Below, in pieces: positions 33,639 to 47,505 of a stretch of DNA of 64,000 bases. A program made the translations under genes and the position numbers. The first letter of the stretch is position 1, and each line of letters begins with the position of its first letter. Source of the DNA: Thioalbus denitrificans (GTDB lineage: Bacteria > Pseudomonadota > Gammaproteobacteria > DSM-26407); contig NZ_QPJY01000008.1 in NCBI RefSeq assembly GCF_003337735.1, positions 1 through 64,000 on the forward strand, given 5' to 3'. The notes beneath the pieces are model-generated. The model was not told where the DNA came from, made no database searches, and worked only from the letters and a program-made list of their open reading frames with translations.

Positions 33639-34482
33639 TCTTGCCCTCCCGGGAAATTATGGATTGTCAACGACAAACTATTGGACCATTGCCATGTAAA
33701 CCGTTTGTTTCCGGCAGAGGCTAAGATGTAACGGAACGTAACGAATTACTTATATATCGCTCACGGCAAACATAAGACTGACATTCTCACAAAGAATCAG
33801 GGTAAAGCAGCCTTTCCGGAGAACCCACATGCCTATGGAATGCTCCGGAAAGACCGCTCGCCAAGCGAGGGCCTCTCGACATGGAAACAGGAGTAGACAG
33901 GCGGCATCCGCGGACGGCAGATTGTGGCGCGGACACAGATGAGGAATGAGCCCCTGCAACGGCCCGAAAGCCCTCCCGTATGGCCTTCTGCGCATTGCCG
34001 ACCTGTGACCGGGGGCGGCAGGTCCTGATCGTCCGGGCGCGGTCATTCGCACAAAGGGGCACCGCCGTTCTCCGGCGACGGGCGACCGGCGAGATAGAAC
34101 GAAGGCCCATGGCCTTCCCGGGAGCGGCGCAACTCAGCACCCACCCCGGGAAGGCCACGAGCCGACTCGCCAGCCACGACCAGGCTCATGATGGAGAAAG
34201 GGAAAGAGCGCCGGTTCACGGCCGGCGCGGGATGGAGCAGGTCCCTCGGACCTTCAGCACACGTTGTCGTTATAGGAAGGGACCGCAGGGCCGGGACCCG
34301 AAGGCCCGCCTCTCTCCCCGGCCCGGAGAGGCTTCTGACGCCGGCACGAAGCCGGCAGGGCGCCACTGGTGCCGCAGTGGCCACGGGTGAAACCGTTTGT
34401 TTCCAACAATCTTACCATGACTCGAAGAGAACCAAGTTTCCGAGTCTGAAGTGGGCATGAGCTACACCACTACCCGGCGCTA
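33639..34482. other. 844-base intergenic region with structured repeats
   Basis: No gene is supported. It holds the repeat copy at 34288-34392. It also holds a 12-bp inverted repeat (34110-34121 GGCCTTCCCGGG and 34144-34155 CCCGGGAAGGCC) that resembles the last stem of the repeat copies at 38.9, 42.9 and 44.9 kb. The stretch AACCGTTTGTTTCC occurs near 33703 and near 34392. Both flanking genes are transcribed on the minus strand. Confidence 0.6.
34288..34392. ncRNA. Structured repeat, copy A
   Basis: Pseudoknot arms GGGCCGGG (34288-34295) and CCCGGCCC (34317-34324), with the second arm in the loop of hairpin GCCTCTC/GAGAGGC (34308-34314, 34326-34332). Then hairpin CCACTG/CAGTGG (34363-34368, 34375-34380). 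It is the most divergent copy, yet all stems keep pairing. An extra hairpin GCCGGC/GCCGGC is inserted. Confidence 0.6.
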
Positions 34483-34965
34483 CTAATCCTCTGTCTTCCC
34501 GGCCTTCGGGACAAGACGTCCATCAAAGACAAAGGGCTCGGGCTCACCCACCCCGATCTTCCCAAAATCGGGATGGGCCGGATTAAGGATGTAGTTGAGC
34601 TCAGCGGGGACGATGACCGAGGGTACACCCAGGACAGCGGATTCACCCGCCTCGATCCAGGCACTGCCGATGAGCTGAAGGAACCCCGGCGCCGGGGTCG
34701 CGTTCCATTCGTCGGGAAGGCTTTCCCGCGGCAGCTCGATGACCTCCACTGCCTCTGGTATGTCGACGGGGAACAGCACGAAATTGTCGCGAAGCTGAGG
34801 CACATCGAGGTGTACCAGCGTCTCCAGCACCGCACCGGACGATGAGCCGGAGGTGTAGACAGCTGGAATCCCCCTGGGGACCCAACGGCTCCCGACCAGG
34901 CGATTGCCCTCGCCACTGAAGGCATCATGAGCATGCCGCCGATGGGTCAGGCGCCAGGCCCGCAT
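34483..34965 (-). CDS. RES-domain toxin
   Basis: The 160-residue protein starts MRAWRLTHRRHAHDAFSGEG and has GSRWVPRGIPAVYTSGSSSGAVLETLVHLD, the R-x(n)-E-x(n)-S arrangement of RES toxins. RES toxins deplete NAD or ADP-ribosylate host enzymes. The start overlaps the antitoxin stop (TGATG). Confidence 0.88.
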   Translation of the reverse strand: MRAWRLTHRRHAHDAFSGEGNRLVGSRWVPRGIPAVYTSGSSSGAVLETLVHLDVPQLRDNFVLFPVDIPEAVEVIELPRESLPDEWNATPAPGFLQLIGSAWIEAGESAVLGVPSVIVPAELNYILNPAHPDFGKIGVGEPEPFVFDGRLVPKAGKTED

Positions 34966-35609
34966 CAGCTGTAGACACCATACTCGATGCGGGTCAGTAC
35001 CTCTTCAACCGCCTCGGCCCCCGCATCGGTATCGAGAAGGTCAACCGGCACCTGCCCTCCCAACGCGCGATTCGGTGCCTTCAGCCAGGCATTGGCGGGC
35101 TCGGAATCACCGAAGATCTCTTCCGCCCGTGAACCGATTCTTGCCAACCGGAACACCTTGTCCGACTGCTCAGGGTCCAGCGGCCTGTTCTCGGCCTTCC
35201 TCCGCTGGTAGGTACGCTTGTTCAGGCCGATGATATGCAGCACGCGGTCTTCCTTGATCCCGAGGAATGACATGAGCTCCGGCACGGTACGCACCGACAG
35301 CCCCTGGCGGATCTCCTCGGCCATGCGAATATCCCATGGCTTTCCTTGTTTTCGGTTGAATCGCCGGAGCTCGCCCTTGAACAGGACGGTCACAACCCGC
35401 TTTCTTTGCGGGTCACCGGAGTCCCTATCAATCTTGAAGCGGATCGACCGTTCAACCCTCTTCCCAGAACCAGGCTGACCCGAAACACGCACTACTTCCG
35501 GCTTGCCCTTTCCCTTTTCAGGCACCAGGACGGCCTTCAGCAGTCGCCGCCCGGCCTCCCGTGCGGAGGGGCGTTCATCAGCCGCATTCCCGGTCTTACT
35601 GACGCTCAT
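34965..35609 (-). CDS. Xre/MbcA/ParS-type antitoxin partner of RES
   Basis: The 214-residue protein has a C-terminal Xre-MbcA-ParS domain (GLNKRTYQRRKAENRPLDPEQSDKVFRLARIGSRAEEIFG...AWLKAPNRALGGQVPVDLLDTDAGAEAVEEVLTRIEYGVYS). The N-terminal 90 residues are longer than usual and basic. It probably represses its own promoter and neutralises the RES toxin. The ATG at 35609 (MSVSKTG) is preferred over one four codons earlier. Confidence 0.88.
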   Translation of the reverse strand: MSVSKTGNAADERPSAREAGRRLLKAVLVPEKGKGKPEVVRVSGQPGSGKRVERSIRFKIDRDSGDPQRKRVVTVLFKGELRRFNRKQGKPWDIRMAEEIRQGLSVRTVPELMSFLGIKEDRVLHIIGLNKRTYQRRKAENRPLDPEQSDKVFRLARIGSRAEEIFGDSEPANAWLKAPNRALGGQVPVDLLDTDAGAEAVEEVLTRIEYGVYS

Positions 35610-35718
35610 TTGCGATCCCACCCAGCCATGTCATCTGTCGTTAATCATATGCCAATTGTCTCAACGGATCGAGCTGTGATAAAAGGAGGGCCGCCCGAAG
35701 GCGGCCCTGAATACCCGT

Positions 35719-37974
35719 TCAGGCGGCCAGCTGCCGCGCCAGTTCCACCTCGATGCTGTCCCCGTGCGGATTCAGCACCTCGAGGCCCGTCTCCGGCATG
35801 TCCCCGGAGGTGGACTGGGCGACGGCGATCTTCTGGGCCATGAGGGTGAGGCAGGCGGTCTGCGCCGTCCCCTCATAACCGAAGAAGACCACCTCCACCG
35901 GCTGTTTCTGGCCGATACGCCAGGAGCGCCGGGCGGCCTGCTGCAGGGTGTAGACGTTGAAGCCCGTCTGGAGGAAGGCGATGGTCGGGAAGTCCAGGAG
36001 GTCGAGGCCCGTCTTCACCAGCTCGGGATTGGTGATGAGCACATCAATCCCCCGATCCACCTGCTCCATGATCCAGTCCTCCCGCCGGGCGGTGTCCACC
36101 GAGGCCCGCAACACCCCCGCCTTGAGCCCCGCCGCGGAGAGCAGCGCCCTGAGACGGGCGGTGGTGTCCCGGGTGCCGGTATAGACCGTGTAGGCCAGCA
36201 CCCGCCGGCCCCGGGCCTTCTCCCGGCGGCAGAGCTCGATGAGCGCCTCCTCCTTGGGCGAAGGCTCAGTCTCCCCGAACACCGACCCGGCAAAGGCCAA
36301 CAGGGTCCGCGTGCGGGGATGCTTCACCGCCTCCTCCCGGAAGCAGCAGTCCGGCCAGGCCAGCAGGGTGTTGAGCACCACGCCGAGAAGACTGTTGTCC
36401 CCCTTGCGCAGGGCCTCCTTCAGCTCCGCGGTCAGCGTCGCCTCCAGATTGCGATACCGGTTCGCCTGCTCCGGCGTCATGGGCACCTCGACGTAGCGCT
36501 CGTCGTAGCGCGGCAGGATGCCCTCGCCGATGTCCCTGAGCTTCAGGAACACGGTGAAGGGCAGCACGTAGCGGGCGATGCCCTGGGGCCCGAAACCCGG
36601 CCCCTTGACGGTGCGCACCGCCACCCGCTTGCCGCGGGCGGTACGGTGCGCCTCACCCTCCGACTCCCTGTAGATGTCCTTGAGCACCCCATGGGCGCGC
36701 ATGAACGCCATGGCCGCCGAGCCGAGGCTGCCGCGGCCGTTGGGCCGGAACCCGTCCTCCACCATCCGCCGGGGCATGATCCGCCACAGCAAAAAGAAGA
36801 GATCGTCGGCGTAGCCGCCCATGAGGGTTCCGGTGAGCAGCAGGACCTTGCGGACCTTGTTCGCCAGCACGCCCATGGCCTGGCCCTGGGCCGAGCCCTC
36901 GTTCTTGTACTCGTGCCCCTCGTCGACGATGAGCAGGTCGAAGAACTCCCGCGGCAGGTAGCGCTTGATGTACTCCGTGGGCTGGTAGCCCCCCTGCCCG
37001 AAGCCGAACTCCAGGGTGGCGAGCCGGCGCTCGATGCGCGCCGCCTGCCGGTCCCCGAAGACCAGCTCGCCATTCCCGTCCATGAGGTTGACGAACTCGT
37101 AGAGGTTGTCGGAGAGCATCTCCTCCAGCGCCGCCTCCCCGAAGGTAGCCAACAGCCGCTCAGCGGACTTCTTCCCGATGGTCGGGATCTGCAGCAGGGC
37201 CGCCCGCACCCGGTCCCGGGGACTGCTGGCGCGGCCCGGGCGGACCAGGGTCCACAGGGCCGCCCCGCAGGCGCAGCGGCGCCGGGCGTCGTCCGGGACG
37301 CTGCCACGGGGAACCGGGTTGTTCTCCCCGTCCCGCAGCACCTCCCCGCAGTCCGGGCAGGCGGCGTACTCCACCGTCTGCACGAACGACCGGGCACCTC
37401 CGTTGCCCTCCTCGGTGGACTTGCGCAGGTGATAGCGTCGAGTAGCCACCGCCGGCCTCCAGTTGAACCCCATGCGCATCCGCACCCGGCCCAGAACAAA
37501 GAACTCGGGTGCGTCGCTTGCCGGGGCGCCCACCATCCCGCGCAGGGTGATGAGCTTGCGCAGGGTGTCCGGGCCGTTCAACACCCAGACACGGGCCCCG
37601 GCGATGGTCTCCCGGATCTCGCGCCGCCACTTGTAGACCAGGTGCGGCGGCGCGATCACCAGGAACCGACGGGCCCCCTCGGCATGCATGACCGCCGCCG
37701 TGGCGATGGCCATCATGGTCTTGCCGGTCCCCATCTCGGCGTTGATCACCGCGGCCGGCTCGTTGGCGTCCGCCAGGAGCCTCACTGCGGCCTGCACCGC
37801 CTCGCGCTGGGAGGGAAACGGCTGGCGGGCCAGCCCCTCCATCACCAGGTCCCGGAAGGGATCCGGCTGCCCGTCATAGACAGGCGGGTTCTGACGGGCG
37901 ACGGCCTCGAGAAGCCCATCGCCGAAGTCCTCGACGAACTGCGACAGGGGAATGATGTTTTCAATGTTGCCCAT
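35719..37974 (-). CDS. SNF2/DEAD-type helicase of the ICE
   Basis: The 751-residue protein has Walker A NAEMGTGKTMMAIATA, a DEGH box (LLIVDEGHEYKNEG), TGTLMGGYADDLFFLL and a C-terminal helicase motif VI (LQQAARRSWRIGQ). A zinc-ribbon-like insert is present (CPDCG...CRCGAA-like, about residues 205-250). This is the SNF2-like single-stranded nucleic acid helicase found in conjugative elements. A long hairpin leader lies 28 bases upstream of its start. Confidence 0.85.
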   Translation of the reverse strand: MGNIENIIPLSQFVEDFGDGLLEAVARQNPPVYDGQPDPFRDLVMEGLARQPFPSQREAVQAAVRLLADANEPAAVINAEMGTGKTMMAIATAAVMHAEGARRFLVIAPPHLVYKWRREIRETIAGARVWVLNGPDTLRKLITLRGMVGAPASDAPEFFVLGRVRMRMGFNWRPAVATRRYHLRKSTEEGNGGARSFVQTVEYAACPDCGEVLRDGENNPVPRGSVPDDARRRCACGAALWTLVRPGRASSPRDRVRAALLQIPTIGKKSAERLLATFGEAALEEMLSDNLYEFVNLMDGNGELVFGDRQAARIERRLATLEFGFGQGGYQPTEYIKRYLPREFFDLLIVDEGHEYKNEGSAQGQAMGVLANKVRKVLLLTGTLMGGYADDLFFLLWRIMPRRMVEDGFRPNGRGSLGSAAMAFMRAHGVLKDIYRESEGEAHRTARGKRVAVRTVKGPGFGPQGIARYVLPFTVFLKLRDIGEGILPRYDERYVEVPMTPEQANRYRNLEATLTAELKEALRKGDNSLLGVVLNTLLAWPDCCFREEAVKHPRTRTLLAFAGSVFGETEPSPKEEALIELCRREKARGRRVLAYTVYTGTRDTTARLRALLSAAGLKAGVLRASVDTARREDWIMEQVDRGIDVLITNPELVKTGLDLLDFPTIAFLQTGFNVYTLQQAARRSWRIGQKQPVEVVFFGYEGTAQTACLTLMAQKIAVAQSTSGDMPETGLEVLNPHGDSIEVELARQLAA

Positions 37975-38001
37975 GGTGTGCCTCCAACGGTTGAGAAGAA
38001 G

Positions 38002-38040
38002 CCGGGGGCACACCACCCCTTCCGGGGTGTGTGCCCCGGC
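38002..38040 (-). promoter_or_regulatory. Hairpin leader, helicase gene
   Basis: On the plus strand GGGGGCACAC and GTGTGCCCC form arms around CACCCC/GGGGTG. It is 28 bases upstream of the start, with a GGAGG-like site between. Member of the leader family described in findings. Confidence 0.65.
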
Positions 38041-38099
38041 GGGGATGTGGATGGGGAGCGCGAACAGCGCTCTAGTTTTCTAGTCTCGCCAACGTGGAG

Positions 38100-38363
38100 C
38101 TAGGCGGTCGGACGATAAGCGTCGTATCCGCGAATCGATGTGTGTTCCACATGGCGCTCTTCAAAGGTCACCGGCTCGCCGGCAGCCTCCTTCGCGCGCA
38201 TGAACGTCGAGAGATCACAGTCCTCCTCGAGAAACACGAGGTCACCTCGCTGGTACGAGTACGGGGTGATCTCCCGGGCGATGCCCAGGCGTGTGATCTC
38301 GGCCCTCCGGACATGAAGCCAGCCGTGTCCGGGGTCCTGCTCGTAGATGTAAGCGGATTGCAT
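38100..38363 (-). CDS. Small ICE protein, unknown
   Basis: The 87-residue product begins MQSAYIYEQDPGHGWLHVRRAEI and is mostly beta-rich and charged. It resembles small accessory proteins with YxQ...GHGWLxV found beside ICE maintenance genes, but I know no function. ATG 38363 has an AGGAG site (ACGAGGAGCTG) and the hairpin leader upstream. Confidence 0.65.
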   Translation of the reverse strand: MQSAYIYEQDPGHGWLHVRRAEITRLGIAREITPYSYQRGDLVFLEEDCDLSTFMRAKEAAGEPVTFEERHVEHTSIRGYDAYRPTA

Positions 38364-38382
38364 GGTGCAGCTCCTCGTATGG

Positions 38383-38432
38383 AGCCGGAGACACACCACG
38401 CCCCTGGCAGGGTGGTGCGATCCCCGGCAGGG
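38383..38432 (-). promoter_or_regulatory. Hairpin leader, gene at 38100
   Basis: Arms GGAGAC...CACCACG and CGTGGTG-like partner GGTGGTGCGATCCCC fold around CCCCTGGCAGGG. Followed on the plus strand by CCGGCAGGGTTGAG, the common family edge. Confidence 0.55.
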
Positions 38433-38591
38433 TTGAGTGAAAACCGGCAGTGAACTACGCTGCCGGCATGGGACTGAAAGAGCACAACCTGGTGGTCGTG
38501 GAGGGTGGACGTGCCGTACTGGAAAAGGCGCTCCTGGAGGCGCTGTTCCGGGGCGAGGGCATCGAGACCCTCGAGGCGCTTGCCGCTCCCC

Positions 38592-38825
38592 TCAAGTCCC
38601 CTGCCCCGCCGCTGAAGATGGTTCGTTCGGGGCAGGCCCCTGCAGTTCCATCCGCGCCAGCAGCTCCTCGTCAATCAGACGAAGCGCCAACCTAGCGTCC
38701 GACCTGCCTTCCAGCGTCCGGATATCCGCCAGGTGCTTTGTGATGAAGGTCTGGCGATTCCGCATCTCCTCGAGCGTCGCGGACTCCAGCCAGGCGATGA
38801 AGGCCTTGATGGTCTCCTTGTTCAT
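38592..38825 (-). CDS. Small helical ICE protein, unknown
   Basis: The 77-residue product MNKETIKAFIAWLESATLEEM... is predicted helical and acidic. ATG 38825 has a CAGGAG site. It carries the hairpin leader and structured repeat B upstream. No family is recognised; the C-terminal 15 residues are proline/serine-rich. Confidence 0.65.
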   Translation of the reverse strand: MNKETIKAFIAWLESATLEEMRNRQTFITKHLADIRTLEGRSDARLALRLIDEELLARMELQGPAPNEPSSAAGQGT

Positions 38826-38845
38826 GGTGCTGCTCCTGAAGAAAG

Positions 38846-38893
38846 CCGGAGACGCACCGGTCCCCTGGCGGGGCGGTGTTCCCCGACAGGGTT
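38846..38893 (-). promoter_or_regulatory. Hairpin leader, gene at 38592
   Basis: CCGGAGACGCACCGG pairs with the CCGGGG-side sequence via GGTGTTCCCCG, with apical CCCCTGGCGGGG. The edge CGACAGGGTTGAAGG matches other copies. Confidence 0.6.
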
Positions 38894-38910
38894 GAAGGAG
38901 TGTGAAAGAT

Positions 38911-39060
38911 GGATCGAGGCCCTGAGGGGCCCGCACTTCCGCCCGATCCGGAGGTGCTTCGAGGGCGCGACTGAACCGCAGTCGCCACGGTTGAAAGCCT
39001 TTCCGCGGAGCCCGGTCCGGCCAGACTCCGGGGAAAGGCCCGTCCCCCAGAGGGGACGGG
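38911..39060. ncRNA. Structured repeat, copy B (full length)
   Basis: GGATCG (38911-38916) can pair with CGATCC in the loop of hairpin GCACTTCC/GGAGGTGC, forming a pseudoknot. Then follow CGACTG/CAGTCG and CTTTCCGCGGAG/CTCCGGGGAAAG, ending with CGTCCCC/GGGGACG next to the upstream gene stop. It lies between the genes at 38592 and 39068. Confidence 0.75.
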
Positions 39061-39067
39061 CGGGGTG

Positions 39068-39472
39068 TCAACGCTCCGGCATCGCATCCAGCGCCGCTTC
39101 GAGGGCCTCATCCACATCGGCCCAGTCCACCGAACCGCCGCGATCCTCGCCACGGCGGTAGGCCTCCACCAGCAGGGCCGCCGCCCGGAAGGCGGCTTTC
39201 TGCCGGCGGATCGCCTTCACGCTGGCATCCGGCGCCGGCCAGTCCGCTGAGGCCTCGATTGCCTGCTCCACGGTGAAGCACAACACCTGACCTGAGTCCC
39301 CCTCCTCCTCGAAATCATCGAGAAGCAGAGGAACCGCCGCCGTGTCCTGCCAGATCTCACCCTCATTGAACAGCCGCTCCGCCTTGGACACCGCGGCTTC
39401 GGCGTCATCGGCCTCGATGCCCACCTGCACCCGGTGCGTGTAGGGCAGTTCGTACTGAATGACATACCTCAT
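39068..39472 (-). CDS. ICE protein of unknown function
   Basis: The 134-residue product starts MRYVIQYELPYTHRVQVGIEADDAEAAVSKAERLFNEGEIW, a short-repeat beta-alpha pattern, then a helical second half. The GGAGGGTGAG site precedes ATGATG, so either ATG (39475 or 39472) may be used. It lies 14 bases after the methyltransferase-type gene stop in transcription order, probably the same transcript. Confidence 0.65.
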   Translation of the reverse strand: MRYVIQYELPYTHRVQVGIEADDAEAAVSKAERLFNEGEIWQDTAAVPLLLDDFEEEGDSGQVLCFTVEQAIEASADWPAPDASVKAIRRQKAAFRAAALLVEAYRRGEDRGGSVDWADVDEALEAALDAMPER

Positions 39473-39486
39473 CATCTCACCCTCCG

Positions 39487-40602
39487 TCACTGGATGGTCA
39501 GGATCCGGCTGTAGGTGGAACTCCCCACGGTGAAGTCGATGGCGCGGATCACGGGAACGAACCGGTCCGTGTGGATGCGGGTTTCGGTGACCGCTCCGGT
39601 CCGCTCGTTCACTTCGGTCTCCACCTTCACCTCCTTCTCCTTGTGGGTGTCGCCCTTGACCACGAAGGTCCGCCCGTCCTTCGAGCGGACCACGCCGGAG
39701 ATCTGACCCGCGGCCAGCGCGAGGGCCAGGTGCCAGCGGGACAGGGCCCGCAATGGCCGCCGGTGCTCCCTGGCGTTCGCCTGGAAGGTGATGCCAAAGC
39801 GATCCCACAGGGTCGGGCCACTCCGCGCCACCTCCTCGGCCAGCTGGCGGGCGTCCAGGCGCACGGTGAAGAAGCGGGGCTCGCCGCGGGGCGCCGGCGG
39901 CACGCGGTAGGGCGCATCCATCCAGGACCCGGGCAGCGGCAGGGCCATGACGTCACCCTTGCCCACCGCCGCCAGCAGCTCGCGCGTCTCCGCATCCACC
40001 GCACCATCCACCCGCTTGCGGACCCCGAACACCACCACCTGCTGGAAGCGGTCGGTGGCGGCCCGGAAGACGCGCAGGCGCGTGAAATGGCGCGTGAGCC
40101 AACCGGCGAACTCCGCATCGAGGGCATAGCCCGGGACAATCAGGACCAGGACACCGCCGAACTGGAGCGTCCCGACGGTCCGCTCGTAGAAGAGCTTCTC
40201 GAGGCGCTTGCGCCCCTTCCACTTGGCCGCCGAGGCGGCGGCCTGGTCGGCGACCAGATCGCCGTAGGGCGGGTTGAGCCACAACAGGCCGAACTGCCGG
40301 GGCTGAACCACCGTGTCCATGAGATCGCCATGGATGCAGCTGTCCAGCAGGGACTTGGCGTGCCAAGCCCGCTCGGCGTCATACTCCACGCCGAAGGACT
40401 CCACCGCGCCCTCGCCCAAAGCACCCAGATGATGGGCGGTCTCGGCAAGCGCCGTGCCCTCCCCGCAGCAGGGATCGAGAATCCGCATCGGGGCGTCCGC
40501 CGGCTGCAGCGCCGACAGAATCCGCTCGAGGGTCGCCTCGTCAGTCGGGAAATAGCCGTTCTTGATGAAATTGCGCGCCAGGCGCTGAAACATGAGAGCC
40601 AT
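39487..40602 (-). CDS. DUF6094-type class I SAM-dependent methyltransferase
   Basis: The 371-residue protein has a SAM motif RILDPCCGEGTALAETA and the catalytic NPPYGD (LLWLNPPYGDL), as in N6-adenine or N4-cytosine methylases. The C-terminal 100 residues are ICE-specific. Such orphan methylases are part of the conserved maintenance block of ICEs and may protect the element from restriction. Confidence 0.82.
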   Translation of the reverse strand: MALMFQRLARNFIKNGYFPTDEATLERILSALQPADAPMRILDPCCGEGTALAETAHHLGALGEGAVESFGVEYDAERAWHAKSLLDSCIHGDLMDTVVQPRQFGLLWLNPPYGDLVADQAAASAAKWKGRKRLEKLFYERTVGTLQFGGVLVLIVPGYALDAEFAGWLTRHFTRLRVFRAATDRFQQVVVFGVRKRVDGAVDAETRELLAAVGKGDVMALPLPGSWMDAPYRVPPAPRGEPRFFTVRLDARQLAEEVARSGPTLWDRFGITFQANAREHRRPLRALSRWHLALALAAGQISGVVRSKDGRTFVVKGDTHKEKEVKVETEVNERTGAVTETRIHTDRFVPVIRAIDFTVGSSTYSRILTIQ

Positions 40603-40631
40603 GAGTTTCTCCTCGGCTGTGTCGTTGAAAG

Positions 40632-40677: not shown

Positions 40678-40727
40678 TGAGTGGATGGTTGAATCCCGGC
40701 GAGACTTGGCCGGCCGGGGTCCCTTGA

Positions 40728-40895: not shown

Positions 40896-40905
40896 GGACT
40901 CCTCC

Positions 40906-41382
40906 TCAGACGAGACCGCGCTCGGCCATGCTCACCACCTCCATGCCGCCCACCACCAGGTGGTCGAGGAGGCGGACATCCACCAGCGCCAGCGCATCGC
41001 GCAGCCGCCGGGTGATGTTGCCGTCCGCCGTGCTCGGCTCGGGAACCCCAGAGGGGTGGTTGTGGGCCACGATCAGCGCCGCGGCGTTGTGCCGCAGCGC
41101 CGCCTTGACCACTTCGCGCGGGTGAACCGAGGCGCCGTCGATGGTGCCGAAGAAAAGCTCCTCGTAGGCAATGAGACGGTGCCGGTTATCGAGGAACAGT
41201 ACCGAGAACACCTCCCGCTCCCGCTCGGAGAGCTTGAGTGTGAAAAAGCGCCGGGAGTCCGCGGGACTTCCGAGCACGACACTGCCGTCCGCCCGGTAGC
41301 TCAGGCGCTTCTCGAGCACCCGGCAGGCGTAGTTGATGACCTCATCATCGGACAGCTCGATGATGGAGACAGGGTTGGACAT
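40906..41382 (-). CDS. RadC-like JAB/MPN-domain protein
   Basis: The 158-residue protein has the JAB motif [20 protein letters not shown] (H-x-H-x7-S-x2-D). Ahead of it is [36 protein letters not shown], the RadC (COG2003) signature without the N-terminal helix-hairpin-helix of chromosomal RadC. Such short forms are common on ICEs. ATG 41382 has GGAGGTG. Confidence 0.88.
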
Positions 41383-41404
41383 GGGACACCTCCGTGCAGA
41401 ACAG

Positions 41405-41443
41405 GCCGGGAGGCGCCCCGGCCGGGGAGCGTTTCCCCGGCGG
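41405..41443 (-). promoter_or_regulatory. Hairpin leader, RadC-like gene
   Basis: GCCGGGAGGCGCCCCGGCCGG pairs with CCGGGGAGCGTTTCCCCGGCGGG. It is 22 bases upstream of the start. Confidence 0.6.
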
Positions 41444-41463
41444 GATTGAAGACAGATTTGAAG

Positions 41464-41545
41464 CTGGACCAAGGCCTGAAGACCCGCACCTCCTCCTGGT
41501 CCGAAGATGCTTTCGAGACGCCGCGATACCCACGCGGCCAGGGTT
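41464..41545. ncRNA. Structured repeat, copy C (lacks last stem)
   Basis: GGACCA pairs with TGGTCC, replacing the GGATCG/CGATCC pairing of other copies and so keeping the stem by two-sided change. Hairpin GCCGCG/CGCGGC follows. The next hairpin is weaker (GCACCTC against GAAGATGC). The last stem is missing where the antitoxin-like gene begins on the plus strand. Confidence 0.6.
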
Positions 41546-41674
41546 GGAAACCTTGCTTTTCAAGAACAGAGGACTGGGCAACCCTGTCCAATTCTTCCTC
41601 TTCATCGAACCATCGGACGGTTTGATGTACGTTGGGAACAGAACCATCCCACAGCGTTACAAAGGAGAGAGACC

Positions 41675-41917
41675 ATGGCTGTCATGACAGCCAAAGTGGC
41701 CCGTGCGAAGTTGCACGAACTCATCGACGAGGTGTCTGAGTCCCACCTTCCACTGCGGATATTGGGCAAGCGGAACAATGCGGTTCTCGTCGCCGAGGAG
41801 GACTGGAATGCAATCCAAGAGACGCTGTTCCTCGTGTCGATCCCTGGGATGCGCGACTCAATCCGCGAAGGCATGGAGACTCCTGTCGATTGCTGCGACC
41901 AGGTTCCGGACTGGTAA
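41675..41917 (+). CDS. Phd/YefM-type antitoxin, no partner visible
   Basis: The 80-residue protein starts MAVMTAKVARAKLHELIDEVSESHLPLRILGKRNNAVLVAEEDWNAIQETL, a Phd/YefM antitoxin pattern. An AAAGGAG site precedes ATG 41675. No YoeB- or Doc-like frame follows, so it is an orphan. It is the only plus-strand gene among minus-strand genes here, which suggests insertion. Confidence 0.82.
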   Translation: MAVMTAKVARAKLHELIDEVSESHLPLRILGKRNNAVLVAEEDWNAIQETLFLVSIPGMRDSIREGMETPVDCCDQVPDW

Positions 41918-42040
41918 CAGTCGTCCACATCATGCAAGCCCTGAAGGCGAACGAGAGTGCTGTCAGCGCTAGACGGCAATCAGCTGCCGACCAGCTATCC
42001 GGGGGTTCACCGATGACCTCGGCAAACCCCCGGTCCCTGC

Positions 42041-42841
42041 TCATGAAGCCTTCAGCTGGGCGAACCGTTCGGCCAGTCGCCACAGGGCGCGGTTGAGGCG
42101 AACATCCTCGGTCACCGAGTTGACCGCCCGGGTCCGCATCCGCCGGCCGCTCCGGGAGCGGCCCCGGATGCCGCCCTTCAGCAGGTTCTCCTGCACCCGG
42201 TTGTAGGCGGACCAGAGATCGGCGCCCACGTCATCCGCGCGGCGCGCCTCCAGGAGGTGGACGGGGCGCACGGGGCTGGTCTGCGACCACCCCTCCCCGT
42301 AGCGCACCTCGAGGGCCGCCTCGGCGAACAACGCCTCCTCCCGCTCGTCGAGCCGGGTGGAGCGGAACTGATCCACCGAGGCGGCGATCCGCGGCACCTC
42401 CTCGATGAGCTCGTAGGAGCCCTCGATGATGTCGTCCACCACATTCTTGCCGTGGCGCACGCGGATGCCGCCGAACTCCCCGATGGGACAGACCATCCCG
42501 TTGGAGCAGACCAGGCGGAACAGTCCCGCATCCAGCTGGTAGGCCGAGCTGCGGTCGTGGCTGTTGGTCAGCACCAGCTCGGCGACAGAGTCGCCCACCT
42601 GGATGGGCTGATCGGACTGGCGGAACCGCACCAGGTGGCGTGTGAATGCCTCCCGCTCGAGATCCCGCACCCGGGTCTGCTGGGCACGAACCGGGAACCA
42701 GCCCTGCTGGCGGAAGGCCTCGATGACCTGGATGGTCGGTACGAAGCCGTAGCGGCCGGACACCTCATGGTGAGGCGCTTCCGCGAAAATGGAGGGAGCG
42801 ACCCGCATCAGCCGGTCGTTGGACAGTGCGATCATGGACAT
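42041..42841 (-). CDS. DUF932 protein
   Basis: The 266-residue protein has the DUF932 core (GFVPTIQVIEAFRQQGWFPVRAQQTRVRD...TNSHDRSSAYQLDAGLFRLVCSNGMVC). DUF932 proteins are conserved on plasmids and ICEs; their role is unclear. The start at 42841 (MSMIALSN) follows the hairpin leader, and copy D of the structured repeat lies beyond. Confidence 0.88.
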   Translation of the reverse strand: MSMIALSNDRLMRVAPSIFAEAPHHEVSGRYGFVPTIQVIEAFRQQGWFPVRAQQTRVRDLEREAFTRHLVRFRQSDQPIQVGDSVAELVLTNSHDRSSAYQLDAGLFRLVCSNGMVCPIGEFGGIRVRHGKNVVDDIIEGSYELIEEVPRIAASVDQFRSTRLDEREEALFAEAALEVRYGEGWSQTSPVRPVHLLEARRADDVGADLWSAYNRVQENLLKGGIRGRSRSGRRMRTRAVNSVTEDVRLNRALWRLAERFAQLKAS

Positions 42842-42867
42842 GGCGTGTCTCCTTGGTGGAAATGAAA

Positions 42868-42914
42868 CCGGAGACACCCCTCGCCCCTGGCAGGGAGGTG
42901 TGTCCCCGGCAGGG
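42868..42914 (-). promoter_or_regulatory. Hairpin leader, DUF932 gene
   Basis: CCGGAGACACCCCTCG pairs with GAGGTGTGTCCCCGG around CCCCTGGCAGGG. It lies 27 bases upstream of the start. Confidence 0.65.
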
Positions 42915-42938
42915 TTGAAGAAAGGACGGTGGAAGGAT

Positions 42939-43096
42939 GGATCGAGACCCCAAGGGATCCGCGCCTCTGCCCGATCCGGAGGCGCTTCGAGGGCGCGACT
43001 GAACCGCAGTCGCCACGGTTGAAAGCCTTTCCGCGGAACCCGGCCCGATCGGACCAGGCGCCGGGGAAAGGCCCGTCCCCCGGCGAGGGGGACGGG
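42939..43096. ncRNA. Structured repeat, copy D (full length)
   Basis: GGATCG/CGATCC pseudoknot arms, hairpin GCGCCTC/GAGGCGC, hairpin CGACTG/CAGTCG, last stem GCCTTTCC/GGAAAGGC, final CGTCCCCC/GGGGGACG. The hairpin arms differ from copy E at paired positions (GCG/CGC versus GCA/TGC), keeping pairing. Confidence 0.75.
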
Positions 43097-43103
43097 CATG
43101 CCG

Positions 43104-43337
43104 TCAAGGCGATGGCTTCATGTAGGCCGCCATCTTGCCGGCGATCTCGCGGGCCACGCCCTGCCACGCCGCGGGGGACACCGGACCTCCCTCCATCGCG
43201 GCCAGCTCGTCGGGCGTGGCCTTCGCCACGGCCTCGGCGTGCTTGACCACCGCATCCACCACGAACACCTGCGACAGGGCGCCGTAGGCCGAGAACTCCA
43301 TTACATCGACAATCCGCTCCACATTGGTCTTGCACAT
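43104..43337 (-). CDS. Small helical ICE protein, unknown
   Basis: The 77-residue product MCKTNVERIVDVMEFSAYGALSQVFVVDAVVKHAEAV... ends GKMAAYMKPSP and is helical. It is typical of ICE proteins of the DUF932 neighbourhood. A CAAGGAGCA site precedes ATG 43337. No hairpin leader of the common type is seen; a hairpin CCCACC/GGTGGGC-like stem lies about 20 bases upstream. Confidence 0.65.
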   Translation of the reverse strand: MCKTNVERIVDVMEFSAYGALSQVFVVDAVVKHAEAVAKATPDELAAMEGGPVSPAAWQGVAREIAGKMAAYMKPSP

Positions 43338-43408
43338 GGACGTTGCTCCTTGTCCGAATCTTGAATCATGAAAGGAGCCCACCCCGCGAACGGAGTGGGC
43401 GGTGATCA

Positions 43409-44014
43409 TCAGGCCGCGGCGGACTTCGTCGCCTCCGGCTCCAGCGTCAGGCGCCCGATCCGCACCAGCCGGGAGACGTGCATCTCCACCGCCTCGCGAT
43501 CGGACAGGTCGAGCCGCCAGGCGCCGACCTGGTAGCCGGGCAGCCGCTCTATCCAGCCATACTCCCGGCACAGCGCCAGCAGCTCGGCGCTCCAGTGCTC
43601 GAGCACCGGAACCCACAGGGTCTGCCGGACCAGCGCCCACAGCCGCTCCTCGATGCGCGCCTCCGGCTCATCCCGGTGGAGCAGCAGGGCCCGGCCGTTG
43701 GCCCGGTCGGGCTCCACGGCCAGGCGGTCATAGAGCCAGGCGTGTACGAGCTCGCCGAAGACCGTACCGCTCCGACGGGCCGTGGTCTTGACCAGCCGAT
43801 CGACGTCGATGGACGAGACCAGGCACGCCCCGTCCTGGCCGCGCTGCCCGATCCGGAAGGAGCGAAGGCCGCCCTCCCGCTCGGATACCGACAGCCGGGC
43901 GAAGAACTCCTGCAGCGCCGTGTCACGGCCCCAGAGGGAGAGAAAGCGCGGCGCGCCGTCGTCGATCAGGTGGGCGTCGCAGAAGATGCCTGGCACTCCG
44001 GATAGCTGAAGCAT
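43409..44014 (-). CDS. ICE protein of unknown function
   Basis: The 201-residue product begins MLQLSGVPGIFCDAHLIDDG and contains RLVRIGRLTLEPEATKSAAA at the end. It is moderately charged with no membrane segments and no recognised motif. The hairpin leader lies 25 bases upstream of its start. Confidence 0.65.
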   Translation of the reverse strand: MLQLSGVPGIFCDAHLIDDGAPRFLSLWGRDTALQEFFARLSVSEREGGLRSFRIGQRGQDGACLVSSIDVDRLVKTTARRSGTVFGELVHAWLYDRLAVEPDRANGRALLLHRDEPEARIEERLWALVRQTLWVPVLEHWSAELLALCREYGWIERLPGYQVGAWRLDLSDREAVEMHVSRLVRIGRLTLEPEATKSAAA

Positions 44015-44039
44015 GGTGTTGCCTCCTCGATGAAGCGCG

Positions 44040-44078
44040 CCGGGGCCGCCACCCGCCGGGGTGAGCACCCCGGCGGGT
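44040..44078 (-). promoter_or_regulatory. Hairpin leader, gene at 43409
   Basis: CCGGGGCCGCCACCCGCCGG pairs with GGGTGAGCACCCCGGCGGG. Confidence 0.6.
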
Positions 44079-44096
44079 TGGTGGATCGTTCAGCTG

Positions 44097-44297
44097 CTAG
44101 TAGGGCACATCCCTGCCGAGGCTGAACGGGAAGATGACGTAGGCTGACTCAAGGCGCCCGAGCTCGTTGGGCACGAGTGTCCGGGCCACGCGTATGTCGC
44201 CCTCGGGACAGTGCGTACGCATCACCTCGACGCACGCATCGGCACCCGCCTGCGACCACGCATAGGCAACGCCGGCCTGAATTCCGTTGGAGTCCAT
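44097..44297 (-). CDS. Small ICE protein, 66 residues
   Basis: MDSNGIQAGVAYAWSQAGADACVEVMRTHCP... ends in a hydrophobic-acidic segment. It follows the gene at 44307 with 9 bases between and is probably in its operon. No family is recognised. Confidence 0.6.
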   Translation of the reverse strand: MDSNGIQAGVAYAWSQAGADACVEVMRTHCPEGDIRVARTLVPNELGRLESAYVIFPFSLGRDVPY

Positions 44298-44306
44298 GAC
44301 GATGCC

Positions 44307-44678
44307 CTACCAGCCTGGGTAAGTGAGGAACAGTTCCGCGATGACTTCGGCTCGAGGCGGGTCGAGCTTCGATGCCACATCACAGAGGTTCGGGAACCCG
44401 GCGCGGACCAGCAGCGCCTGTCCATCCTCGGCGTTGAAGAAGCTGTACATGGCGGCGAGAAAGGCCGCCTCGCCGCGGCTGATGACACCGATGGCGTGCT
44501 CGATGCGTTGCCAGTCCGGCCGCAGCTGGTTCTTGTTGATGGCCTCCGCCACCGAGGCGGAGGTGACATGGAAGTAGGACTCGCCCGCGAGGGCCACACC
44601 CCGCTTCCATGCGGCGAGGAACCGGCGCTCGCGATGGGTGTAGTCGTCCAGTTCGTGAAACTCGGTCTGCATATCCAT
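44307..44678 (-). CDS. ICE protein of unknown function
   Basis: The 123-residue product MDMQTEFHELDDYTHRERRFLAAWKRGVALAGESYFHV... is mainly helical. A GGAGAAGG site precedes ATG 44678. It shows no catalytic motif. It lies 13 bases after the stop of the next upstream gene. Confidence 0.65.
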   Translation of the reverse strand: MDMQTEFHELDDYTHRERRFLAAWKRGVALAGESYFHVTSASVAEAINKNQLRPDWQRIEHAIGVISRGEAAFLAAMYSFFNAEDGQALLVRAGFPNLCDVASKLDPPRAEVIAELFLTYPGW

Positions 44679-44691
44679 GACCTTCTCCTCC

Positions 44692-44853
44692 TCAGTGAAG
44701 GGTGGCCACCGCCCGCACGCGGACAGTGCCGTTGACGTGAAAACGAATCGCATAGCGCCGCCCGCCGAGATCGGCCAGGCAGGCCCGGCGGCCCCGCGGC
44801 TTCAGGGCGGCCAGCGGAAGACGCCGCATGGCGTCGGGAATGGATGAGCTCAT
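44692..44853 (-). CDS. Small basic protein, 53 residues
   Basis: MSSSIPDAMRRLPLAALKPRGRRACLADLGGRRYAIRFHVNG... is basic and may bind nucleic acid. It has a CGGGAGC site before ATG 44853 and heads a three-gene set with the hairpin leader and copy E upstream. Confidence 0.55.
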   Translation of the reverse strand: MSSSIPDAMRRLPLAALKPRGRRACLADLGGRRYAIRFHVNGTVRVRAVATLH

Positions 44854-44875
44854 GGTGGTGCTCCCGGAACGTGGG

Positions 44876-44922
44876 CCGGAGACACCGGACCCCGGCCGGG
44901 GTGCGGTGCGCCCCGGCGGGGG
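44876..44922 (-). promoter_or_regulatory. Hairpin leader, gene at 44692
   Basis: CCGGAGACACCGGACCCC pairs with GGGGTGCGGTGCGCCCCGG around CCGG. The edge is CGGCGGGGGTTGAAG. Confidence 0.65.
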
Positions 44923-44941
44923 TTGAAGAAGCGTCGAAGAA

Positions 44942-45090
44942 GGATCGAGGCCCGAAGGCCCGCACCTCTGCCCGATCCGGAGGTGCTTGACGGGCGCCAC
45001 TGAACCGCAGTGGCCACGGTGAAAAACCTTTCCACGGAATCCGGACCCGCCAGGTTCCGTGGAAAGGCCCGTCCCCGAGGGGGGACGGGA
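44942..45090. ncRNA. Structured repeat, copy E (full length)
   Basis: GGATCG (44942-44947)/CGATCC, hairpin GCACCTC/GAGGTGC, hairpin CCACTG/CAGTGG, last stem CCTTTCCACGGAA/TTCCGTGGAAAGG (13 bp, all paired), final CGTCCCC/GGGGACG. Its middle hairpin differs from copy B (CCACTG/CAGTGG versus CGACTG/CAGTCG) by paired changes. Confidence 0.75.
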
Positions 45091-45096
45091 CAGGGG

Positions 45097-45582
45097 TCAG
45101 TCCGGATCGCCCTTCACGAAGATCCGGCCCACCGGCTGGAACCGGTAGCCCAGCTCCTTCAGGCGGGTGGCCTGGCGGCGCAGGATCTCCCGATCCACCG
45201 TGGGGTCGAGCTTCACCTTCTCGCCGAGCGGCCACAGCTGGCCGAAGAGCGCCTTGTCCTCGCTCGGGACCCCGGTGGCCGGGAGCTCGGGCTCCGGCTC
45301 GGCCGGGGGCTCCTCCTCCTGGGCCGTGGTGGTATCGAGACCGGTGAGGGCGATGGCCACGAGCGTCGCCCGCACCTCGGTGATGGAGCGCCCGCCGATG
45401 GCGTAGGACGCCTGGTAGATGCGGCTGATGGTGAACTCGCCCTCGTACTGGCCGGGATCGAACTCCTCGATGCCCTCCTTGACTGAGAACTCGCCCACCT
45501 CGGTGACGAGCTTGCCGACGTTGAACGGGCCGTTGCGGCCGTTGATTGTCTTCACGGTGACAGCACCGCTGATCTTGATCAT
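45097..45582 (-). CDS. DUF3275 protein
   Basis: The 161-residue product starts MIKISGAVTVKTINGRNGPFNVGKLVTEVGEFSVKE and has YEGEFTISRIYQASYAIGGRSITEVRATL, the DUF3275 core of ICE proteins. The C-terminal segment after an acidic linker (EEEPPAEPEPELP) ends LGYRFQPVGRIFVKGD. The role is unknown; it belongs to the maintenance block. Confidence 0.85.
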   Translation of the reverse strand: MIKISGAVTVKTINGRNGPFNVGKLVTEVGEFSVKEGIEEFDPGQYEGEFTISRIYQASYAIGGRSITEVRATLVAIALTGLDTTTAQEEEPPAEPEPELPATGVPSEDKALFGQLWPLGEKVKLDPTVDREILRRQATRLKELGYRFQPVGRIFVKGDPD

Positions 45583-45613
45583 GGGTTGGTCTCCCCGATT
45601 GCCGTGGAAACAC

Positions 45614-45656
45614 CGCCGGGAAGAGACGCCCCACCGGGGAGCGGGCCCCGGCGGGA
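45614..45656 (-). promoter_or_regulatory. Hairpin leader, DUF3275 gene
   Basis: CGCCGGGAAGAGACGCCCC faces GGGGAGCGGGCCCCGGCGGG. Arms are shorter than in other copies. Confidence 0.5.
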
Positions 45657-45670
45657 CAGTCGATGTGGAT

Positions 45671-45979
45671 TCAGTGCAGGTCGCCCGGCTCGATGAGCAG
45701 GTCGCAGACATGCGCCTCGGCATGGCCGACCCGGCAGAGCGCGCCGGTCCGGCGCACGACGCCGGCCTCGACCAGCGCCTCCAGGACGCCCCGGTTCTCC
45801 GCGAAGTCCTTGATGAGCACCTGATTCGGACCAAGCGGATGACAGGGCACGTTGACGGTGGCCGTGGCCATGGGACCCTCATGGGTGAAGAGCCGCAGGG
45901 CGATCCGGCCGTTGCCGTAGCGTGCGAAGGACAGCTGGCAGGGCTGCCCGGCAAAGGACACCGTGACTTGGGTGTTCAT
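45671..45979 (-). CDS. ICE protein of unknown function
   Basis: The 102-residue product MNTQVTVSFAGQPCQLSFARYGNGRIALRLFTHEGPMATATVNVP... is a beta-rich domain that is widespread on plasmids and ICEs next to DUF3275. Function is unknown. A GAGGTG site precedes ATG 45979. Confidence 0.65.
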   Translation of the reverse strand: MNTQVTVSFAGQPCQLSFARYGNGRIALRLFTHEGPMATATVNVPCHPLGPNQVLIKDFAENRGVLEALVEAGVVRRTGALCRVGHAEAHVCDLLIEPGDLH

Positions 45980-46000
45980 GGAATCACCTCGATGGGAATG

Positions 46001-46049
46001 CCGGGGGACACGCCACCCCCGGACCGGGGTGTGGTGCACCCCGGCGGGG
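46001..46049 (-). promoter_or_regulatory. Hairpin leader, gene at 45671
   Basis: CCGGGGGACACGCCACCCC pairs with GGGGTGTGGTGCACCCCGG. It lies 22 bases upstream of the start. Confidence 0.65.
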
Positions 46050-46112
46050 TTGGTGGAAGCGCGGCAGGAGTCTGGCGCCGGGGAACGTGCTCCCCGGCGC
46101 CGTCTCACGGCA

Positions 46113-46730
46113 TCAGGCCGCCAGGCGCCAGGTGCAGGTCTGCCCGTCGAAGCGGTAGCCCTGCGCCTTCAGTCGCGCCTTCTTGGCCTCGAAGTCGGGA
46201 TCATCCCGCGCGAGCGTCACCTCCTCGGGGAGGTAGTCCGCGACACCCTCCGCAGCGCCGGTGGAGGAGTCCTCCGGCCCGGACACCGGAGCGGGGTCGC
46301 CGTCACCCTCCTGGGACCGTGCCGGCGCATCGGACGATGCGGGCGCGGAGTAGACGGTCTCGCCATCCACCTTGACCCAGTCGATGCGCAGCAGGCGGGC
46401 CTTGAGCGAGACGCCGGTCTGACCCGCCTTCTCGCCCTTCCCGTAGGTGAAGGTCTCGGCGTAGAGATCGCCGAGCTTGAAGGCCACCAGCACCTTGCGC
46501 TCGGCCTGCAGGTGCTTCATGGCCGCCTTGACCACCTTCTTCGCCTCCTCGCCGGAGACGCGGCAGTCGAACCGGGTGTACTCCACCTGGTCCGCGGCGC
46601 CGTGCAGCGCGGAGATATCCACGGCCAGGAAGGGCTCGCCCCTGCGGACCGGGACCTCGCGGGCGCGGTTGAGATAACCGATGCCGGTGACGTGGAGATC
46701 GAAGAACTTCGTGGAAGCGTTTTCGGACAT
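46113..46730 (-). CDS. DUF3577/STY4534-family ICE protein
   Basis: The 205-residue product starts MSENASTKFFDLHVTGIGYLNRAREVPVRRGEPFLAVDISALHGAAD, the DUF3577 hallmark. The C-terminal tail ends FEAKKARLKAQGYRFDGQTCTWRLAA, similar in logic to the DUF3275 tail. It is thought to act in ICE replication or stability. A structured leader precedes it; leaders upstream of this family have been proposed as conserved RNAs. Confidence 0.9.
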   Translation of the reverse strand: MSENASTKFFDLHVTGIGYLNRAREVPVRRGEPFLAVDISALHGAADQVEYTRFDCRVSGEEAKKVVKAAMKHLQAERKVLVAFKLGDLYAETFTYGKGEKAGQTGVSLKARLLRIDWVKVDGETVYSAPASSDAPARSQEGDGDPAPVSGPEDSSTGAAEGVADYLPEEVTLARDDPDFEAKKARLKAQGYRFDGQTCTWRLAA

Positions 46731-46752
46731 GGTGTTTCTCCTTGGATGAATA

Positions 46753-46807
46753 CAGGGAAACACCGCGCGGATTGCGCCCCGTCGGGGAAGGTGTCTCCCC
46801 GGTGGGG
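46753..46807 (-). promoter_or_regulatory. Hairpin leader, DUF3577 gene
   Basis: GGGAAACACCGCGCGG pairs in part with AAGGTGTCTCCCC around GCGCCCCGTCGGGG. It lies 22 bases upstream of the start. Confidence 0.6.
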
Positions 46808-46865
46808 TGAATGGCTGACGGTTCAGCCTGAGAGTTCTGGAACTGCTGCAGCAGTGGCTGATGAT

Positions 46866-47222
46866 TCAGCCGAAGAACCGCATCGCCGCCAGCGCACCGA
46901 CGGCTACGACAAGCATGCCGCCGAGGCGGATGGTCAGGCGGTTGGCCACCAGATCGATCTTATGATCCAGCGCGGCGATATCCGCCTTGGTGGCGGCTTC
47001 CAGGCGCGCGATATCCGCCTTGGTGGCGGCCTTGAGATCCTCGATATCCGTCTTGGTGGCCATGTCACGGACATCGTCCTTGGTGGCCAGCGTGGACTCG
47101 AGCATCTCGCGGAACACCTCGCCTTGCGCCTCGGCAAGCGCCTCGGCCTGGGCCTCGGTGTAGCCCGCGTTCTTCAACTTCTTGGCAAACGCCAGTGTGT
47201 CGAATGCGTGCATGACGCTCAT
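46866..47222 (-). CDS. DUF1640-type coiled-coil membrane protein
   Basis: The 118-residue product MSVMHAFDTLAFAKKLKNAGYTEAQAEALAEA has the DUF1640 start and then coiled-coil repeats (DIEDLKAATKADIARLEAATKADIAALDHKID). Its DNA shows an imperfect repeat of about 33 bases (GATATCCGCCTTGGTGGCGG). A C-terminal membrane helix (GGMLVVAVGALAAMRFFG) ends it. This is a CCDC90-like protein, function unknown. Confidence 0.85.
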   Translation of the reverse strand: MSVMHAFDTLAFAKKLKNAGYTEAQAEALAEAQGEVFREMLESTLATKDDVRDMATKTDIEDLKAATKADIARLEAATKADIAALDHKIDLVANRLTIRLGGMLVVAVGALAAMRFFG

Positions 47223-47280
47223 TCCGGTCTCCTTCCGGTCGGGTGGGTGGTTGGTTATCCGCCCGGCGGAAGGAGCGCTG

Positions 47281-47312
47281 TTCCCTTGCGGGGCGTCTCC
47301 CCGCAAGGCGGT
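47281..47312 (-). promoter_or_regulatory. Hairpin leader, DUF1640 gene (divergent copy)
   Basis: CCTTGCGGGG and CCCCGCAAGG are complementary over 10 bp around CGTCTC. It lies about 60 bases upstream of the start and is shorter than the other copies. Confidence 0.55.
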
Positions 47313-47388
47313 GCAATACCTGAGGTCAGCAACCCCAAGGAGATAGATCCCGCGAGGGAGACACCATCACTGTGGGGCTGTTGATCAT

Positions 47389-47465
47389 GGATCGAGGCCA
47401 CAGGGCCCGCCTCTCTGCCCGATCCGGAGAGGCTTCAAGGGCATCGCTGAGAGAGCAGCGACACT
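47389..47465. ncRNA. Structured repeat, copy F (lacks last stem)
   Basis: GGATCG (47389-47394)/CGATCC, hairpin GCCTCTC/GAGAGGC (changed from copies D and E but paired), hairpin TCGCTG/CAGCGA. It ends before the last stem, about 40 bases before the ParB stop. Confidence 0.65.
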
Positions 47466-47505
47466 CGTCGAGCAATTTACCTATAGCGGAATATTCTGGC
47501 GATGG

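Follow-up and report, generated by a model that had tools for sequence, protein, structure and literature searches.

A recurrent pseudoknotted RNA module and a long conserved noncoding stretch in an integrative and conjugative element of Thioalbus denitrificans, with a possible role in antitermination

The window considered here is a stretch of 64,000 nucleotides from Thioalbus denitrificans (contig NZ_QPJY01000008.1, positions 1 to 64,000, forward strand), and it carries an integrative and conjugative element (ICE) with an F-type transfer system in which a small structured element recurs among the minus-strand genes. The ICE region holds ssb, topB and parB genes near the copies of this element, together with a DUF3577 gene whose protein bears the NCBIfam label STY4534-family ICE replication protein, and is presumably of the SPI-7/PAGI/ICEclc kind. 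An earlier inspection of the letters alone, hereafter the sequence-only reading, had placed six copies, A to F, at 34288, 38911, 41464, 42939, 44942 and 47389, and all six were found there with their pairing arms as it had written them (Table 1). Successive copies are single and dispersed, 1.5-4.6 kb apart. As that reading had proposed, a covariance model (R1) was built from the six copies; it scores 66.7-102.7 bits on them, the next match in the window reaching 15 bits (E 0.19), and in the organism's own 4.1-Mb genome it gives six matches at E <= 0.01 that are exactly the six copies (150 of 4523 first-look candidates scored). The copies form a single family of structured RNA modules within the ICE.

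Table 1. Positions of the element copies, the adjoining transcription signals and the long noncoding stretch in the window.
Feature	Position	Strand	Remarks
Long conserved noncoding stretch (putative RNA)	33901..34396	-	starts with copy A; profile match 1-529
Core of long stretch	33995..34096	-	hairpin P with its own pseudoknot, near-invariant CCCUUUGUGCG, stem M, hairpin Q
Element copy A	34282..34384	-	5' end of long conserved noncoding stretch
Element copy B	38905..38988	-	leader of 77-aa gene (38592-38825)
Terminator-like hairpin S	38995..39041	-	abuts copy B
Element copy C	41460..41541	-	leader of radC-like gene (40906-41382)
Element copy D	42933..43016	-	leader of DUF932 gene (42041-42841)
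Terminator-like hairpin S	43023..43074	-	abuts copy D
Element copy E	44936..45017	-	leader of small gene (44692-44854) and the genes after it
Terminator-like hairpin S (CCUUUCC..GGAAAGG + UUUUU)	45021..45073	-	abuts copy E
Element copy F	47383..47464	-	leader of CCDC90-like gene (46866-47222), then DUF3577
Sigma70-like promoter TTGACC-18-TATAGG	47480..47509	-	ends 15 nt before copy F; p 0.02 against 100 shuffles

Read 5' to 3' on the minus strand, the element consists of hairpin H1 (for example GCCACTG/CAGTGGC), a linker that contains CCC and in most copies ends in AAGC, and hairpins H2 and H3, with the loop of H2 pairing beyond H3 to form a pseudoknot. H2 has about seven pairs (GCACCTC/GAGGTGC), and its loop comprises a short spacer, GGATCG and a few bases before the 3' arm of the helix. 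H3 is a small hairpin lying within the pseudoknot, of the GGCC UUCG GGCC type and often with a UUCG loop, and is followed by the CGATCC that pairs with GGATCG. Copy A has H1, H2, H3 and a GGGCCG/CGGCCC pseudoknot, with an extra hairpin, H1b, between H1 and H2. A further long stem that the sequence-only reading had counted as part of the repeat in copies B, D and E is actually a terminator-like hairpin (S) on the 5' side of the element.

That reading had also claimed a structured RNA with a pseudoknot and covariation, and the statistics bear it out, exceeding both shuffled and slid controls. In the six-copy alignment 94.4% of 144 cells are paired, two-sided change occurs at 9 of 24 pairs, and 14 cells show two-sided change as against 4.8 in shuffles (reached in 0 of 500); sliding the partner by 1-3 columns leaves at most 3 such cells. 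Row F is out of register in H1 of this alignment, and the support for H1 is accordingly understated. The pseudoknot arms themselves covary among the window copies (GGATCG/CGATCC, GGACCA/TGGTCC, GGGCCG/CGGCCC). A wider alignment (A4) began from 50 distinct cores, the six window copies included, from which one unclear copy was removed and three of the remaining 49 omitted for long inserts; in the resulting 46 cores two-sided change is seen at 14 of 17 pairs and in 118 cells, against 45.5 +/- 6.3 in shuffles (0 of 500) and at most 27 in slid controls. Among 64 candidate copies all save four could be parsed for the pseudoknot, and the arms of these 60 are GGATCG/CGATCC (28), GGACCG/CGGTCC (12), GGATCG/CGGTCC (10), GGACCA/TGGTCC (4), GGGCCG/CGGCCC (2), GCCTGC/GCAGGC (2) and two others occurring once each; GGTTGA/TCAACC arms are visible by eye in additional loci. 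A coding origin of the repeats was rejected in view of the covariation of the helices.

The orientation of the element, which the sequence-only reading had left unsettled, can now be assigned. On the gene strand of 46 distinct parsed copies there are 51 G-U pairs and 10 A-C pairs (both scored equally), distributed as 32 and 0 in H3 and 9 and 1 in the pseudoknot, counts to be read in the knowledge that the copies are related, that the events are not independent and that the H3 figure comes partly from the outermost pair. The 58 H3 loops, identical repeats kept, include 27 of the UUCG/UCCG type, 2 CUUG and 3 GNRA, and CUUG and GNRA loops, like UUCG loops, stabilise RNA. Because of the G-U excess and these loops, the element is best understood as an RNA in the gene sense, that is, on the minus strand; H2 shows no strand bias (10 G-U and 9 A-C), which weighs against it. 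A UUCG loop has served as an argument for RNA in the case of STAXI (PMC2864571).

The element is rare within its class. R1 matched 6 of 369 genomes of the class, from five gammaproteobacterial families, with 6, 5, 7, 8, 1 and 1 copies; a congener genome holds 5. Relatives of the locus were collected by a DUF3577-protein search of genome contigs, and R1 matches (E <= 0.5) occur in 17 of 81 loci, comprising the best 80 of 158 and one locus on a viral contig; no Pseudomonas locus is among these 17. Another model, R2, run on 398 genomes of the phylum gave weak matches in 21 genomes besides the organism's own (E 2.6e-4 to 0.0092), one of them with two matches; all 21 were treated as chance, no module being visible in the four that were viewed in contig orientation. 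A plasmid search with one 111-nt query did not find the element.

With respect to known RNA classes, no Rfam match to the copies was obtained, so that a match to a known class, which the sequence-only reading had named as telling against it, did not arise. The whole window is without a match at gathering thresholds, as are six relative loci, and the 9 matches at E <= 10 in 28000-52000 include none over a copy. Nor is any family named DUF3577 or ssNA-helicase among the Rfam matches obtained for the window and relative loci. STAXI, which that reading had offered as a candidate, is in Rfam (RF01728) and gives no match; it resembles the element in having pseudoknots with UUCG loops near ssb and topoisomerase genes (PMC2864571), but occurs as at least two tandem repeats whereas the element occurs as single dispersed copies, and a tandem STAXI array was rejected on that spacing and on the Rfam result. 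An HDV-like ribozyme, which has a similar nesting of helices, was likewise rejected, as there is no P3 helix and no Rfam match. The literature searched on DUF3577 or ssNA-helicase holds nothing about the element, judged by title, and no element-like RNA was seen in the accessible part of the ICEclc transcriptome study (PMC2892462).

The class that comes nearest, radC RNA (RF01754), is one that the sequence-only reading had not named. Rfam applied to five further loci placed radC RNA directly before DUF3577 in both Pseudomonas loci, and 16 of 16 genomes queried hold 2-8 copies each, 65 places in all. To our knowledge radC RNA has no assigned function. It was listed in 2010, merely named in a table in the accessible text (PMC2864571). 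The element is not a member of radC RNA as Rfam defines that class, since neither covariance model finds the other. RF01754, whose gathering score is 40 bits, has no match in the window at that score, none at E <= 10 in 28000-52000 or in six other loci, and none in the organism's own genome; in the class survey it matched 2 of 369 genomes, one above the cut-off and neither the organism's own. Conversely, R2 with filters off found no match at E <= 10 in 30 radC copies, R1 in three radC-bearing genomes gave 0, 0 and one match at E 0.053, none convincing, and a MAFFT alignment failed to align the two RNAs.

A common ancestry with radC RNA is nonetheless probable, on grounds of topology, place and a CACCCA-type linker, without an alignment score. 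Both RNAs have a hairpin, a CCCA-type linker and a second hairpin whose loop pairs downstream over a small hairpin; the RF01754 model comprises three hairpins, the second with an 11-nt loop, and pairing of that loop past the third hairpin is visible by eye, its arms varying between copies (GAACC/GGTTC, GGATC/GATCC, ATAACC/GGTTAT). Both lie 5' of ICE genes such as DUF3577 in proteobacteria, in several copies per genome. They differ in that radC RNA has an extra 3' domain of about 60 nt after the pseudoknot, absent from copies of the element, whereas the element has the additional 5' hairpin H1, mostly GGAYCG/CGRTCC arms and, commonly, copies that follow terminator-like hairpins.

The immediate surroundings of the element are of two kinds. 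Copies E, D and B lie 4-7 nt from the ends of their S hairpins, and because the gap is so short there is no space for a promoter between them. More generally, a context set of 67 distinct copies, each with 85 nt or more of upstream sequence (4 chosen by eye), divides by threshold into 33 with a strong hairpin ending within 50 nt upstream and 34 without, two of the latter (L037 5635 and L046 2160) showing a sub-threshold S hairpin by eye; this hairpin often reads CCUUUCC..GGAAAGG, and 3-5 U come between it and the element. TTGAC is found within 65 nt upstream of 17 of the 34 hairpin-less copies (1.9 in shuffles, at most 8 in 500) as against 1 of the 33 with a hairpin, and a promoter at p <= 0.05 precedes 11 of 34 as against 0 of 33. 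For radC RNA, assessed at 30 loci out of the 65 places, both TTGAC (1.7 expected) and a promoter at p <= 0.05 are present in 28 of 30; there the Rfam match begins at the -10 box or overlaps it. A stricter promoter scan of 33500-52500 reported none. On the gene strand of 33001-52000 there are 13 strong hairpins, three of them those abutting copies E, D and B; the corresponding figures are 4 of 11 in the relative locus L053 and 2 of 8 in L037.

Some further details of these flanks are recorded as seen. In loci L040 and L039 (G222), S is a near-perfect GUCAUUCCC..GGGAAUGAC repeat before most copies, with N stretches near one of them. In the 5' flanks at L047 12250, 13843 and 16343, S seems partly missing where L037 has it, by true loss or by assembly collapse. 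The spacer region of the head promoter at L047 9779-9800 is palindromic (GACGAGCG-CACAAA-CGCTCGTC) and operator-like, as for a repressor.

Every next gene identified is on the strand of the copy and 3' of it, with a start codon mostly 65-160 nt past the element. The leader role suggested by the sequence-only reading suits copies B-F, which end 77-160 nt before a start codon, but not copy A, which opens a longer noncoding stretch. Next genes vary among ICEs (DUF3577, SNF2, radC, DUF932, DUF3275 and small genes), so that the module is tied to no single gene, and orthologous genes such as SNF2 and DUF3275 have the module in one ICE and are without it in another.

A second structured element is seen just 5' of minus-strand start codons, for example at 38840-38900, 38379-38430 and 44878-44925. 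It is a CCCUGCCGGGG..CCCCGCAGGG hairpin; pairing is possible between its CACC loop and a GGUG on its 3' side, and its CCGGGGA strand can instead, by eye, pair with UCUCCGG. Over 15 genes it is clearest at the 77-aa gene, a 99-aa gene and the small gene after copy E, while in several others the best fold is no better than in shuffles.

Downstream of copy A a candidate start codon first occurs after 219 nt and a recognised gene after 644 nt; at the counterparts of this copy in L037 and L047 no recognised gene follows for 599 and 670 bases. The copy A locus, L037, L047 and L018 align across about 500 nt of noncoding sequence, in the order of the 5' module, a GCGCYGGCCGUGAACCGGCGC hairpin, a long GGCCUUCCCGG..CCGGGAAGGCC hairpin and the conserved core. 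A profile of this stretch is matched by Salinisphaera-type loci from the 5' module onward, by several other ICEs in the core only, and by Pseudomonas loci weakly. In 13 non-Pseudomonas cores, 12 of 20 pairs show two-sided change, in 22 cells as against 8.8 in shuffles (0 of 500) and at most 7 in slid controls. Pairing amounts to 96.9% in P and the pseudoknot, to 90.4% in M, which has no two-sided changes, and to 53.8% in Q, which is misaligned in several rows of the alignment (A9) and rests on a per-sequence parse; that parse in turn mis-assigned P or the pseudoknot in some rows. The G-U and A-C counts of the core (4 and 17 in the pseudoknot, 9 and 3 in P, 7 and 7 in Q) give nothing clear on strand.

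A covariance model of these 13 cores (R3), from which Pseudomonas was purposely excluded, matches 74 of 85 sources, one match each and Pseudomonas included; 11 of the 74 are training rows, and 58 of the non-training matches are Pseudomonas-type loci with weak E of 0.0016-0.41. In 56 of those 58 the match starts 515-634 nt before DUF3577, and in L091 and L093 it lies 7-8 kb away. R3 matches 9 of 369 class genomes once each (E <= 1.2e-7) and, in the draw of 398 phylum genomes, the organism's own genome only. The long stretch is not in Rfam 15: at E <= 10 the stretch of L037 has 8 matches, none reaching its gathering score. No description of it was found in the literature searched, most subscription papers lying outside, and a plasmid search with the Pseudomonas stretch gave only pieces covering 12-20% in 3 records. 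We infer that the long stretch is transcribed. In the Pseudomonas-type loci, TTGAC lies within 330 nt upstream of the core in 44 of 44, a figure without a shuffle control, and a run of at least 5 T within 234 nt downstream in 27 of 44. The Pseudomonas stretch, inspected by eye, opens with a module of similar form (CGCC..GGCG, ACCCA, GACCGA..UCGGUC, and a loop CUCCG pairing with CGGAG); an automatic search did not settle on these arms. In several ICEs (L055, L059, L060 and L066) the core comes after a gene and lacks a preceding module, so that the stretch need not always stand as a unit of its own.

Since the module stands at operon heads and also after terminator-like hairpins with no promoter between, control of elongation is suggested, and the most likely function, held tentatively and at somewhat less than even confidence, would be that of a leader acting in cis, by which RNA polymerase gets past the terminators within long ICE operons. 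Transcription of the module at an operon head would yield a folded RNA that, by itself or together with a bound factor, acts in cis on the elongation complex; terminators between ICE genes would then be read through by the modified polymerase, whereas polymerases starting elsewhere would stop at them. A silent ICE would in this manner stay insulated, and few promoters would suffice to express long operons. The long stretch might be a larger version of the same device, and it is possible, if rather doubtful, that ICEs of the SPI-7/PAGI/ICEclc kind carry a processive antitermination system of RNA alone or RNA plus factor, made up of head modules, of which radC RNA would be one branch, and one long single-copy RNA per ICE of about 400-570 nt (ends by eye) that has the same starting module in several lineages. 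Precedents exist in conAn of conjugative elements and in put and EAR (PMC8955417), put being that of a phage, HK022 (PMC9378689), and in the 452-nt canT of Tn916 (PMC11658703), to which the long stretch is near in size; intrinsic terminators within an operon are considered a good sign of an antitermination system (PMC8955417). Like the element, put, EAR, conAn2 and canT are structured RNAs; they lie near the head of long operons with internal terminators, a position that the hairpin-less copies with TTGAC (17 of 34) may share, and act from the operon head, whereas copies of the element also follow internal terminator-like hairpins, a comparison made by description.

A number of observations weigh against antitermination. 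The terminator immediately 5' of an internal copy is out of that copy's reach in cis, and the spacing to the start codon suits translational control equally. Ten of the 13 strong window hairpins have no copy after them, one of these being S-like (33805-33859), and a strict scan of 33500-52500 gave 10 terminator-like sites as against 7.7 +/- 3.2 in shuffled sequence, none of the three S hairpins being among them, for which the scan's restriction to loops of 3-8 is a partial reason. The U-tract after S is short, TTGAC is also absent from 17 of the 34 hairpin-less copies, and 16 of 24 representatives, the window not among them by this test, have a terminator-like hairpin on the 3' side of the core, at a distance of up to 260 nt.

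Much of the same evidence can be read in other ways. The distance to start codons, the second structured element before several of them, and the sharing of the module between leaders and the stretch with the single-copy core would all be expected if the module bound a protein or ligand and controlled the next gene together with the start-proximal hairpin, and in a variant the long RNA could titrate the same protein, as CsrB titrates CsrA. This form of leader control is rather unlikely, given that copy A has no near start codon and that SNF2 and DUF3275 orthologues can do without the module. A slightly less probable alternative would make the module the 5' end of a processed messenger, cut in the U-rich stretch between S and H1, such that the pseudoknot protects the new 5' end and S the 3' end of the upstream RNA. 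The order of S, U-rich stretch and H1 at internal copies and the adjoining of modules to promoters are in keeping with it, as are unexpected gaps in reverse-transcription PCR of ICEclc, read by the authors as possible mRNA cleavage (PMC2892462); a simple hairpin would suffice for such protection, however, and the conserved pseudoknot and loop bases suggest a specific partner.

Explanations at the level of DNA fare considerably worse. A structure formed by the transferred single strand, serving as a promoter or priming site, has been raised as a possibility for STAXI (PMC2864571) and would suit a conjugative element with ssb, topB and parB genes nearby, yet the UNCG, GNRA and CUUG loops, the G-U bias of the gene strand and the placement by promoters and terminators render it very improbable. 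Less credible still, and rejected, is a double-stranded operator palindrome repeated over the ICE: the arms are palindromic and the GATC-rich ones are common to the repeats, but the pseudoknot arms covary across inserts of variable length and the copies keep a constant orientation to the gene that follows.

By its position, its promoter and its topology, radC RNA is now connected with a second family of greater diversity and, in many Pseudomonas genomes, with a long conserved noncoding stretch that lies near the same ICE genes. If antitermination is the correct explanation, it would account both for the silence of large Gram-negative ICEs and for their expression of long operons, and conAn and canT would have a counterpart among Gram-negative bacteria. 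Should the mechanism prove wrong, the long stretch would still offer, in its core, a single-copy, covarying RNA candidate.

Two neighbouring arrangements in the window complete the description. Between the SNF2-helicase gene and copy A lies a minus-strand RES domain/Xre-MbcA antitoxin gene pair (34483-35621). On the plus strand, a small gene between DUF932 and copy C (41675-41917), antitoxin-like by eye only, is missing from the congener locus L043 and thus looks like a recent insertion.

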